A stretch of DNA of 35,775 bases from a virus: positions 1-35,775 of IMG/VR virus record IMGVR_UViG_3300017763_000066; one strand, given 5' to 3'. This document shows, in pieces, positions 15,666 through 27,746 of this stretch. The notes beneath the pieces are model-generated. The model was not told the origin of the DNA. It did no database searches and saw only the letters and a program-made list of their open reading frames with translations. A program made the position numbers and the translations under genes. Each line of letters opens with the position of its first letter. The stretch's first letter is position 1.

Positions 15666-17360
15666 TTAGGAACATTCCTTTTGCCCTGTGGTTGGGTCAA
15701 TAAAACAAGCCTCTGCTTTAGGCTTATCTTCTTTAACTTCATTTAAGATACCATATCTTTTACCTGCAGCACGAAAGGTTGTTATACCTTTACATCCTAG
15801 TTCCCAAGCATTTGTATATAGTTTCTTAAAGTCTTCGTAAGTAACATCATCACCTACATTACAAGTCTTACTAACAGCACTATCAATATACTTAGATGTA
15901 ATAGCTAGTACTTCTAAATGTTCTTGTGCACTAATTTCGTTAGCAGTTCTACTCTTAACACCTTGCGTGTAAGCATAGTCTTCTACTCGTTCTATCTGGT
16001 GTCCATCAAACTGTTGTATAGTTCTGTCATAGAACAATGAGTAAGGTGGTTCAATACCTGAACTCACGTTATCTGCAGTAAGAGAGATAGTTCCTGTTGG
16101 TGCAATAGAAGTTAGGTGAGAGTTTCTAATACCATTCTGTAATATCTTTTCTTTTACCCAATCAGGTAATGTCTGTATGTATTTACTTTTCATGTAATGG
16201 TATTGGTCATACAATGGGAAAGAACCTTTTTCTTTTGCAAGGTCTGCACTAGTTGCATAACAGTAGTCTCTTAATGTTGCCATTACTTTTTCTGTAAACT
16301 TATTAAAGCCTTCAGAAGCATATGGATAACCACACATCTCTGCAGCATTAGATAAGGCTGTAACTCCTAGTCCCATTCTTCTCTTGTTCTCAGCTTCTGT
16401 TCTTTGTTCTTTCAATGGGTATATAGTTCTATCGACTACGTTATCCATTGCTCTAACAACAGTAGCTATGTCACCTGTAAACAAACCAAAGTCAAACTTC
16501 TTGTCAGTTACATACTTAACTAAGTTAAATGAACCTAGAAGACAAGCACCGTATGGTGGCAATGGTTGTTCTCCACATGGATTAGTTGCAGCAATAGTTT
16601 CACAGTAATATAGATTGTTCATCTTGTTGATGGTATCTATAAATAAAACCCCAGGCTCTGCCCAATCCCATGTACTTCTCATTATCATATCCCACAAGGC
16701 AACAGGGTCTACTTCCTTGTAGACTTTACCTTCATAGGTTAGAGGAAAAGGTCGTTCTTCTTTTAGACATCTCATAAACTCATCTGTAACTCCAACAGAA
16801 ATATTAAATCCTGTTAATGAAGTAGAGTCATGTTTAGCTGTGATGAATTGCTCAATGTCTGGATGGTCAATTCTAAGTACACCCATCTGTGCACCACGTC
16901 TGTGACCTGATGATGCGATAGTCTGACAGATAGAATCATAGATACCCATGAAAGACACAGAGCCTGATGCCCTTGAGTCCAAAGATTTTATAAGGTCACC
17001 TCTTGGACGTAGCTTAGAGAAGTCATAACCTATACCACCACCACGTCTCATAGTCTCAGATGCTTCGGTGGCTCGTGCCATTATAGATTCCATAGAATCA
17101 TCAATAGTCCCAGACACAAAACAGTTAAATGCTGTAGTCTGTCTTGCAGCACCCATAGCATTTTGTACTCTACCTGCAGGAAGAAACCTCATGTTACGTA
17201 ACGCATCTTTGAAATCTTCAAAGTGTGTAGGTGAATCTTTCAATGCACCTGCAATACGAACTACCTTACTATAAAAGTCTTCTCCTGTTTGTCTGTATTT
17301 TTGTGTGTCTATTTCTTCTGATAATGGTAGTGTCATTCCATAATGCTGATTAGGTATCAT
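15666..17360 (-). CDS. nrdJ: ribonucleotide reductase, adenosylcobalamin-dependent (class II) type
   Basis: A 564-residue reductase that turns ribonucleotides into deoxyribonucleotides for phage DNA synthesis. Visible elements: first redox cysteine C80 in AFNCFVSG; phosphate-binding and glycine-rich region around RRGGGIGYDFSKLRPRG (about 106-121); catalytic loop NPCGE at 260-264 (C262, E264); second redox cysteine C273 in GACLLGSFNL; and a C-terminal GCKGITTFRAAGKR. The C-terminal cysteines C552 and C563 are ten residues apart rather than in a CxxC pair. There is no N-terminal ATP cone and no small-subunit or glycyl-radical activase gene nearby, which favours a stand-alone B12 enzyme. Its ATG overlaps the stop of the DUF3310 gene. 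The class is inferred from the motifs and the missing partners; the fold itself is certain. Confidence 0.9.
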   Translation of the reverse strand: MIPNQHYGMTLPLSEEIDTQKYRQTGEDFYSKVVRIAGALKDSPTHFEDFKDALRNMRFLPAGRVQNAMGAARQTTAFNCFVSGTIDDSMESIMARATEASETMRRGGGIGYDFSKLRPRGDLIKSLDSRASGSVSFMGIYDSICQTIASSGHRRGAQMGVLRIDHPDIEQFITAKHDSTSLTGFNISVGVTDEFMRCLKEERPFPLTYEGKVYKEVDPVALWDMIMRSTWDWAEPGVLFIDTINKMNNLYYCETIAATNPCGEQPLPPYGACLLGSFNLVKYVTDKKFDFGLFTGDIATVVRAMDNVVDRTIYPLKEQRTEAENKRRMGLGVTALSNAAEMCGYPYASEGFNKFTEKVMATLRDYCYATSADLAKEKGSFPLYDQYHYMKSKYIQTLPDWVKEKILQNGIRNSHLTSIAPTGTISLTADNVSSGIEPPYSLFYDRTIQQFDGHQIERVEDYAYTQGVKSRTANEISAQEHLEVLAITSKYIDSAVSKTCNVGDDVTYEDFKKLYTNAWELGCKGITTFRAAGKRYGILNEVKEDKPKAEACFIDPTTGQKECS

Positions 17361-24085: not shown

Positions 24086-26491
24086 TTATGCAAAGAAAAA
24101 GGAACTCTCAAGCACGTGGTCTAAAACAAGATTACCTTTAGTTGGTATTGGTTCTATCTCTTTGTGTCTGTGTTCAGGTAGAACTTCTAAAAGATAATTC
24201 CTAAACTCTTCTAGTACATCCATCTGTGAATACATCTCAACAAATGCAGTACGTAATGCACCCCACATTTCTTCAGCATCTGCAGCATGAGTACCATAGC
24301 TATCATGTACCATTGCAAAAGAATGTATGTCTAACTGCTTGGCAACATGAAGAGTAATCATCAGGTGACTAGCATCAATACTATGTACAAAGTTAGGAGA
24401 GATACCATTAGCCTGTCGGTTCTTATCTAACTTACCTGTCTGTGCATACACTCTAGGTTTAAATACTTTGCCAAGTAACTTGGTTTGTATCTGACTAGAC
24501 TTAACTTCTTGGTATGCCTGTAGCACAGGAAGATTACATGGTGTGTCCCACCTGATAGGTAGTCCTTCTGAAGATGCAACCCTTGCTGCTTTTTGTAACC
24601 ATGCCATAGCATCAGTTGCTGCATGAACAACCTCAGATATAGATTGCCATATCAACTTGGACAAGAAGGTTGCTGCTTTAAATACATCCTCACCGAATGG
24701 ATGTGAGATACCTTTGTCACGTTGCTCAACAATATAATCCATTACAAAATCTGTAAAAGAATATTGCTTACCACCATAAGGCAACACCATACATGGACGT
24801 TTGCAACAAGACCTAGATACACCATACTCAATCCACTTCTGTGCTAAATCATCTGGCATTTCTTTTAGCTTATGTGTAACTGTATCAGCTACCTTCTGAT
24901 AGATGTCTTGTGGGTCATCCATTGGTACAAGATTAACTTCTTTACCTGTAGTCTCTGACCTTAACATTGCTGCAAAATGTTGGAGTCCATTACAACTACC
25001 ATCAGCACAGACAGGAAGACTAGACTCAAAGTTCTCAGGGTCAGCAACAAGACCTTCCCATTCTTTACAGAAAGCTAAGAACTGAAAAGGTTTATCAGAT
25101 TCTTTAGCCCACCATAGGTCAGCCAATGGGTCTTTGGCACAGGATAGTATTCTCTCTTGGTTATCTTGCACCCAATCAATACGTTCTTGCAAAGATGATT
25201 TATCATAACCAAACATATTTGCCCCATGTATAGCTAAGTGACAAGCCCCTTGCTCATTTAATTTTTTTGCCTCAGAAAAAAGCAGTAGTCCTTTGGCAAA
25301 GTCTGTGCCCTGTGGGTTCAGATAGTTTGGTACTGCATAGATACGTCCTCTAAAATCTAACTGATACACCATGTAGATAGCCTTCTCATCTTTGAACTTG
25401 TCAGCTATCTGTATTGTCTTCCTTAACAAGAGTCTCTTTGATGCCATACGATTGTTCTCTGTATGTATGATGACTGCATTTCTTTTCCAATTAATCTTAG
25501 CTTGTTTATTGGTAGCAATATCATGTGGCTTGTTAGGAATTTCTGCGTTCTCTGATGGTGGTAAGCTAGGTAAAGCTATGCCACTATCCCATATGTCCTT
25601 CAGTACCTGTAAGACAAACTGATTGACCTTGAACCCTGTCTGTTGCATGGCATTAACTGCTCCATACACCATAGGCATATCGAAGTGCTTGAGTTCTTGT
25701 AGGTAGTTCTTGTTCTCAGTCTTAACAAGAGGTATCTGACGAACATGATGAGTGTGATAACCACCATCCGTAGGTGTAGTCCAATCTTTAGGTGGAACAA
25801 CACAAGGATAAAACTCAGGTCTGAGTATCTCTTGGAAAGCACTAAGGTCTTTGATTATCTTTAGTGTAGTCTCTGATGCCAACAAGAGTTGTCTTCTCTT
25901 GCCACCCTTCATCATACTCTTCAGTTCTAACAGACCTGTATTGACTATAGTTAAATCAAGTAAGGCATTACCCACCAATAGTTTCTCTCTCTGTGTCCAT
26001 GATGACCACTCTTGACCATCTCTTCTTGATGACTCAATTAACTTACGTCTCTTATAAGTATAGCCTGATGACCTCTTGTCTAGGTCTTTCTTGACTACCT
26101 TATACAGACGAGGATTGTTTTCCTCAAAGGTTCTTATCCTTAACTCATCTTCAATAGCCATACCTAAAGCTACTGCAGAACTACTATAGTCTCTCTTCCT
26201 AGTTATCTGTGATAGTGCCACCCTCAAGGTGATGACTGCTATGACTGATGGCTCTAGGTCATTCAACAAGACTGCTGATGTAGCTGACTTACCTGACCTA
26301 CCCTTCATAGAAGATTCTATATGCTCATTGATAGCTTCTTCTACCTTTAAGACTGTCTGTCTCAAGAGGTATTGACCATAGGTAGTTGTAGATTCTTGGG
26401 CTTTCTCTGCTTTTTGTAGGTTATTCTTGTGGAATCTGTGGATTCCTTCTTCTCGCATTTCACGTTCTAACGATACTTGTCGTGTGTCCAT
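24086..26491 (-). CDS. single-subunit phage RNA polymerase, T7 gp1-like
   Basis: An 801-residue polymerase (T7: 883). Catalytic residues are present: D497 in CADGSCNGLQHF, K564 in CKRPCMVLPYGG with Y572, and D730 in MVHDSYGTHAADA. The C-terminus ends FFFA, like the FAFA foot of T7. It transcribes the middle and late phage genes. The region that would form the promoter specificity loop (about residues 667-690, QIQTKLLGKVFKPRVYAQTG) is shorter and has different residues from T7, so the promoter must differ from the T7 consensus. GGAGAG lies about 5-7 bases before the ATG. It sits directly downstream of the attP site, an arrangement that matters for lysogeny. Confidence 0.97.
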   Translation of the reverse strand: MDTRQVSLEREMREEGIHRFHKNNLQKAEKAQESTTTYGQYLLRQTVLKVEEAINEHIESSMKGRSGKSATSAVLLNDLEPSVIAVITLRVALSQITRKRDYSSSAVALGMAIEDELRIRTFEENNPRLYKVVKKDLDKRSSGYTYKRRKLIESSRRDGQEWSSWTQREKLLVGNALLDLTIVNTGLLELKSMMKGGKRRQLLLASETTLKIIKDLSAFQEILRPEFYPCVVPPKDWTTPTDGGYHTHHVRQIPLVKTENKNYLQELKHFDMPMVYGAVNAMQQTGFKVNQFVLQVLKDIWDSGIALPSLPPSENAEIPNKPHDIATNKQAKINWKRNAVIIHTENNRMASKRLLLRKTIQIADKFKDEKAIYMVYQLDFRGRIYAVPNYLNPQGTDFAKGLLLFSEAKKLNEQGACHLAIHGANMFGYDKSSLQERIDWVQDNQERILSCAKDPLADLWWAKESDKPFQFLAFCKEWEGLVADPENFESSLPVCADGSCNGLQHFAAMLRSETTGKEVNLVPMDDPQDIYQKVADTVTHKLKEMPDDLAQKWIEYGVSRSCCKRPCMVLPYGGKQYSFTDFVMDYIVEQRDKGISHPFGEDVFKAATFLSKLIWQSISEVVHAATDAMAWLQKAARVASSEGLPIRWDTPCNLPVLQAYQEVKSSQIQTKLLGKVFKPRVYAQTGKLDKNRQANGISPNFVHSIDASHLMITLHVAKQLDIHSFAMVHDSYGTHAADAEEMWGALRTAFVEMYSQMDVLEEFRNYLLEVLPEHRHKEIEPIPTKGNLVLDHVLESSFFFA

Positions 26492-26615
26492 ACTGAACTC
26501 TCCATAAAAGTTGTCTACTATTGTCTATAAAACCTAACGTAAACAGGATTAAGATGCCCCTGAGAAGTCAGGGGACTTGTTAACTTTATGAAGTATTTGA
26601 ATTACTTAGAAGGTG
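26492..26615 (-). promoter_or_regulatory. leader of RNA polymerase gene with a 7-bp GC-rich hairpin
   Basis: Between the attP core and the RNA polymerase ATG, positions 26557-26574 form a perfect hairpin (CCCCTGA / TCAGGGG, 4-base loop). It is the only GC-rich element in an AT-rich stretch. On the minus strand it is followed by CATCTTAATCC, so there is no true T-tract. It could be a weak terminator of tRNA transcription in the prophage, a processing site, or part of the att region. Confidence 0.5.
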
Positions 26616-26667
26616 TGCCCAGAGACGGACTCGAACCGTCATGGCATTTCTGCCGAGGGATTTTAAG
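26616..26667 (-). other. attP core: 3' half of a tRNA-Leu(UAA) gene
   Basis: On the minus strand this 52-base stretch reads as a tRNA from the anticodon loop to the discriminator base. The loop CTTAAAA holds anticodon TAA. It is followed by the 3' anticodon strand TCCCT, a long class II variable arm (GGCA-GAAA-TGCC), a perfect 5-bp T-arm (GACGG..CCGTC around TTCGAGT) and the acceptor strand TCTGGGCA. No matching 5' half is present: the bases before the loop do not pair with TCCCT. The integrase gene ends 47 bases upstream. This is the standard arrangement for tRNA-targeting tyrosine integrases, where the phage copy restores the tRNA 3' end after insertion. The host tRNA identity is inferred from the fragment. 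Confidence 0.9.
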
Positions 26668-26714
26668 TCGAGTGACTTAGGATTACCAATCTATAATTCA
26701 GATACTTACACATA

Positions 26715-27746
26715 TCAGCCTGTCATATTGTCCATAAATTTGTCATCAGACTCTAACACTCTACTCGCATCTAAAAGATTTTGCGTATCTAGGTGTGCAT
26801 ATCTTAGAGTCATGTGTATAGACTTATGACCAAGCCATTGTTGTACAACTTGCAGTTGTATTCCTCGCTGAACAAGACGAGATGCACAGGTGTGACGTAA
26901 GCTATGTAAGACAAACTCTTTGTCATCTTGTAAACCCATGTCATCACGTAACCATTCCCATACACGTCTTATCTTGTCTTCTGTAAGATTAAATATAGGT
27001 TTGTTTTTTAGTCTGCCTTCTGTGTCAATACGAGTCTGTAATATATTCTTGACTCGTCTTGTCAACGGAACAGTACGAGGATGTCCGTTCTTAGTTTCCC
27101 AAACAGAAAGAGTTCCTTTGTCTAGGTCAACATCACGACAGGACAAACGTAAGCCCTCTCCTCTACGTAAACCTGTGTCCAACAGGAACAAGAAAAAATC
27201 TCTGCAGTCTGTTTCATTTTTTTCAGTTAACCTCTGAACAAGATAGGCTTCTTCTTCTTGGATTAAATATCTTAGTCTACCATTCTTAGTTGGTATCCAA
27301 TCAAGTTTAGGTTTCCTATCTAACCACCCTCTGTCTACTGCTAGATTTAGTGACTTAGATATACAAGCACTAATCTTGTTGAGTGATGATGCTGATGCAC
27401 CATTCTTTTTGAAGTGTTGGATAACGTCATCAATCAGAGTGGCACTTATGTCTGCAATAGGAACATGACGTCCCATGACATCAAGTATTTTATCTTGTCT
27501 ACGTATCTGAGTTAGACCCCAATCAGAGTCTGACCAATACTTATCTGCAGTTTTACGGAACAAGATTTCTGATGTCATACCTAAGACACAGTTTGCCTCT
27601 GGTAAAGGTAACCCATCTTCAATACATTTCATACAATGCTTCTCAAGTTTGACTGCATCATTCCTAGAGGAACATGACTTGCGAAACACGACACCCTTTT
27701 TACGAATGTCTACTTGCCAAGCATTTGCTATTTTTCTAATTGGCAT
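26715..27746 (-). CDS. int: site-specific tyrosine integrase
   Basis: A 343-residue tyrosine recombinase. The catalytic set is complete: R194 (TGLRRGEGLRL), K219 (TKNGHPRTVPL), H281 and R284 (HSLRHTCASRL), H307 (LGHKSIHMTLRYAHL) and nucleophile Y316. Residues ~1-50 form a short arm-type DNA-binding domain (IRKKGVVFRKS), and ~60-145 the core-binding helical domain. AGGAG lies 7 bases before the ATG. It is the last gene before attP and shares the direction of the early genes, so it could be made early in every infection. It makes this phage capable of lysogeny, unlike T7. Confidence 0.96.
   Translation of the reverse strand: MPIRKIANAWQVDIRKKGVVFRKSCSSRNDAVKLEKHCMKCIEDGLPLPEANCVLGMTSEILFRKTADKYWSDSDWGLTQIRRQDKILDVMGRHVPIADISATLIDDVIQHFKKNGASASSLNKISACISKSLNLAVDRGWLDRKPKLDWIPTKNGRLRYLIQEEEAYLVQRLTEKNETDCRDFFLFLLDTGLRRGEGLRLSCRDVDLDKGTLSVWETKNGHPRTVPLTRRVKNILQTRIDTEGRLKNKPIFNLTEDKIRRVWEWLRDDMGLQDDKEFVLHSLRHTCASRLVQRGIQLQVVQQWLGHKSIHMTLRYAHLDTQNLLDASRVLESDDKFMDNMTG

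Follow-up and report, generated by a model that had tools for sequence, protein, structure and literature searches.

A half tRNA gene between the integrase and RNA polymerase genes

The IMG/VR virus record IMGVR_UViG_3300017763_000066 (35,775 nt, GC 35.8%) was analysed over its full length and is called the window here. The element of interest is found in the gap that separates a tyrosine integrase gene (int) from a T7-type RNA polymerase gene, where half of a tRNA-Leu(UAA) gene very probably forms the core of a phage attachment site (attP), whose integrase-side and polymerase-side arms we call P and P'. The locus contains the following features.

26715-27746, minus strand: tyrosine integrase, 343 aa (PF00589, 1.1e-28; PHROG integrase, 2.7e-49)
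26694-26707, minus strand: P-arm copy of a 14-bp inverted repeat, AAGTATCTGAATTA (repeat search, 93% complementary; conserved in contigs L003-L007)
26616-26669, minus strand: attP core, 3' half of tRNA-Leu(UAA) from the anticodon loop to A73, no CCA (sequence; covariation in the variable arm and T-stem)
26591-26604, plus strand: P'-arm copy of the 14-bp inverted repeat, AAGTATTTGAATTA (repeat search; conservation in relatives)
26557-26574, minus strand: GC-rich hairpin CCCCTGA-CTTC-TCAGGGG, between attP and the RNA polymerase gene (fold z -2.6; stem kept in relatives)
24086-26491, minus strand: T7-type single-subunit RNA polymerase, 801 aa (PF00940, 7.8e-108; PHROG RNA polymerase)

Read on the minus strand, 26616-26669 is GACTTAAAATCCCTCGGCAGAAATGCCATGACGGTTCGAGTCCGTCTCTGGGCA. 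It comprises an anticodon loop, CTTAAAA (anticodon UAA), the 3' strand of the anticodon stem, TCCCT, a 4-bp variable arm (GGCA/TGCC), a T-arm, GACGG-TTCGAGT-CCGTC, with a 5-bp stem and the loop TTCGAGT, and an acceptor strand, TCTGGGC, followed by the discriminator A; CCA is not encoded, the next bases being CACC. Genuine tRNA-Leu(UAA) genes from two bacterial metagenome-assembled genomes (MAGs) are identical to the core at 46/54 and 47/54 positions, and the chance expectation for the tRNA match is ~4e-14 over both strands of the window. The original prediction of a half tRNA-Leu(UAA) gene therefore holds, since the loop, long variable arm, T-arm and acceptor 3' strand are all present. Its 5' half is missing, as had also been predicted: ARAGORN calls no complete tRNA in this 35.8-kb record, which may itself be incomplete, the Rfam tRNA model scores the core at 14.3 bits (cut-off 29), and no 5'-half motif occurs elsewhere in the window. 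Two details need adjustment. The tRNA-like match does cover the predicted extent of 26616-26667 but runs 2 bases past 26667, and the pairing, which was thought to break exactly at the anticodon loop, breaks near it but 2 nt earlier, because the phage 5' flank forms two anticodon-stem pairs (G-C and A-T) with the core before the next three fail.

The surroundings are those expected of an integrating phage. The core sits 45 bp from the int stop codon and is bracketed by the 14-bp inverted repeat AAGTATYTGAATTA, whose copies we presume to be arm-type integrase sites, as expected of an attP. All six catalytic residues of the integrase (R194, K219, H281, R284, H307 and Y316; R-K-H-R-H-Y) are conserved without exception when it is aligned with six relatives. 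The T7-like genes of the window include those for RNA polymerase, helicase-primase, DNA polymerase A, head-tail connector, T7-type capsid and terminase. Pelagiphages supply the closest matches to the terminase, connector and DNA polymerase (up to 67%, 58% and 56% identity, respectively), and pelagiphage RNA polymerases share 44% identity with that of the window. With a single-subunit RNA polymerase, T7-like replication and head genes, and int directly upstream of the polymerase gene, the window is, by its gene content, an integrase-bearing T7-like phage of the Autographiviridae, of marine type.

Integration would probably rebuild the host tRNA gene

The earlier proposal that the core belongs to an attP is well supported by where it lies, by the arms on either side, by conservation among relatives and by known precedents, and it is highly probable that the integrase recombines this core with a host tRNA-Leu(UAA) gene, rebuilding the tRNA. 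The integrase would bind the arm sites on either side of the core, and recombination would take place between the anticodon-loop regions of attP and of the host gene. The host promoter and 5' half would then be joined to the phage 3' half, giving a working tRNA on the RNA polymerase side, and the host's own 3' half would be left stranded beside the integrase gene. In this way, a host tRNA gene could serve as the insertion site and still be left whole. When we simulated the left junction (attL) by joining a proteobacterial 5' half to a phage 3' half, a tRNA-Leu(UAA) was predicted in 8/8 combinations of the two bacterial genes with all phage variants; no tRNA was predicted in the native attP or in the simulated right junction (attR). 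Integration may be followed by stable lysogeny.

The hairpin at 26557-26574 was considered as a strong intrinsic terminator after the core and rejected, as its T-tract is weak and the terminator scan made no call. We conjecture that it may nonetheless end the transcript of the rebuilt tRNA before the RNA polymerase gene. Its loop is CTTC or TTTC in the window, L007 and L003; L005 and L006 have GAAG or GAAA instead, which looks like an inversion of the hairpin.

Core variation among near-identical phages preserves pairing

The integrase is encoded in ten viral contigs. Five of them (L003-L007, 98% identical) share the attP layout and have nearly identical arms, and all five viral copies of attP carry the phage P arm. 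The cores, by comparison, differ from that of the window at up to 9/54 positions, the maximum being reached in L003/L004 and L006. For L003, these 9/54 core differences compare with 1/45 in the P arm, 5/124 in the P' arm, 21/1032 in the integrase gene and 10/2406 (0.4%) in the RNA polymerase gene (core versus RNA polymerase, Fisher p about 5e-11).

These changes respect the fold. No variable-arm or T-stem pair is lost in any of the four phage variants or the two bacterial genes; in two pairs of the variable arm and one of the T-stem, both partners have changed. None of 500 shuffles attained the covariation score of this set, which includes the two bacterial genes. Because the changes preserve pairing, the cores look like halves of different real tRNAs, and the simplest inference is that cores have been exchanged with host tRNA genes. 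Tentatively, and with somewhat less than even confidence, we propose that the attP core is an exchangeable module carrying the 3' half, of opposite polarity to that in the T7-like marine relatives examined, which has been replaced from the tRNA genes of different hosts while the rest of the phage stayed nearly unchanged. If so, the cores would record past host changes. A core that varies in this way between near-identical phages marks the host only at the time of acquisition, and its fast, pairing-preserving change is a reason not to infer host lineage solely from the identity of attP.

Host searches and alternative explanations

Half-tRNA cores are an established tool for host assignment (PMC3861242), and the original prediction had expected the core to name the host lineage, among the alphaproteobacteria in particular, by an exact search with its 52 bases. 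That expectation failed: nothing identical to the 52-mer occurs in a set of about 85,000 species genomes or in the viral contigs, and the phage records contain no match to the core. A degenerate pattern spanning all phage variants recovers two MAGs only in the genome set, one gammaproteobacterial and one from the Burkholderiales; neither is exact, and the variable arms and T-stems of both genes differ from those of the phage cores. In a sample of 398 genomes drawn from the phylum to which the genome of L018 (G001) belongs, G001 alone falls within 3 mismatches of a degenerate pattern, with 3. The core gives the alphaproteobacterial host no support, leaving phage kinship as its basis. A SAR11 host like HTCC7211 is disfavoured, as the tRNA 5' half in HTVC109P, which is of HTCC7211 type, mispairs with the window acceptor strand at 2/7 positions and with the anticodon stem at one, although ARAGORN still calls the hybrid a tRNA. 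The prophages anticipated at the tRNA-Leu(UAA) site were not found either: no attL, attR or prophage form occurs among the viral contigs, bacterial genomes not having been searched by integrase.

The missing host match and prophage form weigh against the proposed attachment site, as do several further observations. When the core is compared with its immediate flanks only, the Fisher contrast in pairs with the window is modest, from p 0.002 (L003) to 0.26 (L005). In L008-L010 (94% identical integrase) and L011 (89%), the whole attP segment is absent between int and the RNA polymerase gene. None of the ten early open reading frames (ORFs) upstream of int gives a Pfam match above cut-off, and neither a MarR-like regulator nor a repressor is recognised among them; a MarR-like gene beside int is usual in the relatives examined, but is not a strict requirement for integrase-bearing Autographiviridae.

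Could the segment instead be a relic, a tRNA fragment left by a past imprecise excision and no longer an attachment site? The absence of an exact host match and the close relatives L008-L011, which keep the integrase without the segment, are what such a reading would lean on. A relic should lose its pairing, however, and here all helix pairs are kept while the core changes, the arms are nearly invariant and the integrase is intact, making a relic improbable. Less probable still, and very unlikely, is independent expression by the phage, either as a tRNA gene of its own or as a split tRNA. Well-formed T-arm, variable arm and acceptor strand speak for this, but we rejected a separate functional tRNA or split tRNA since the window offers neither a tRNA call nor a 5' half, and the core scores below the Rfam cut-off. 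A more serious rival concerns lysogeny rather than the identity of attP: the phage may integrate site-specifically but transiently, with no true lysogenic state, as reported for T7-like cyanophages. The lack of a recognised repressor fits this, as does the gene layout shared with P-SSP7 and S-TIP37, for which integration has been shown experimentally without stable lysogens (PMC8776855). Against it, T7-like phages of Pelagibacter and Agrobacterium lysogenise their hosts, as cited in the LUZ100 paper (PMC10134795). We give transient integration a little under an even chance; the attachment-site assignment is the same in either case.

Comparison with known phages

P-SSP7, S-TIP37 and pelagiphages already provide examples of this integration strategy; S-TIP37, a related T7-like cyanophage, needs both its integrase and attP to integrate into tRNA-Leu (PMC8776855). 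The present phages add an uncultured T7-like group to those likely able to integrate. P-SSP7 has the same gene layout as the window, and its gap likewise contains a half tRNA-Leu(UAA) that stops at the anticodon loop, but it carries the 5' half where the window carries the 3' half. Its rebuilt tRNA would therefore be on the side of the integrase, downstream of phage DNA. In the group described here, by contrast, the phage supplies the 3' half, which would place the rebuilt tRNA on the RNA polymerase side, under the control of the host promoter. The pelagiphages HTVC109P (Leu), HTVC120P (Arg) and HTVC121P (Cys, reversed), whose integrases are about 33-40% identical to that of the window, share the int-attP-RNA polymerase layout and a half-tRNA core, the Arg and Cys halves being identified by eye, but all three carry 5' halves. 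The 3' half is thus confined to the window's group among the phages compared, all four relatives examined with a tRNA half having the 5' half. The 3'-half arrangement is common among tRNA-integrating elements generally. The CRP-3 core, for instance, overlaps the 3' end of tRNA-Met (PMC6918029).

A different arrangement is found in HTVC200P, HTVC119P, LUZ100, S28-C10 and L012, which have related integrases (L012, 46%), the same tRNA species and GACTTAAAA at the site after int, but carry the whole tRNA-Leu(UAA) next to int, with a core of about 9-11 bp. A whole tRNA with a ~10-bp core fits the logic of tRNA-dependent lysogeny (PMC10865867), in which a core of about 10 bp accompanies a complete phage tRNA of the same isotype; the window has a 54-nt half-tRNA core instead. 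Whereas phages with tRNA-dependent lysogeny would replace the tRNA, the window would rebuild it. Together, these phages suggest three solutions to the targeting of an essential tRNA gene: a 5' half, a 3' half and whole-tRNA replacement. L012 is itself a candidate for tRNA-dependent lysogeny, as judged from its layout: at L012:1064-2300, a complete tRNA-Leu(UAA) lies immediately upstream of int, and GACTTAAAATC follows int.

The attP segment is missing from the gaps at L008:8726-8780, L010:1665-1720 and L011:1969-2010, where the integrase is retained without a recognisable site. In the distant integrase relatives L045-L063 (39-44%), the gap after the integrase gene holds no tRNA half and short dyads only. 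Some of these dyads resemble anticodon stem-loops of other tRNAs, for example GAATTGAAATC in L062, which is Ser-UGA-like, and this suggests diversified short cores. Elsewhere in the window, 15666-17360 codes for a barrel protein of the ribonucleotide reductase large subunit (PF02867).
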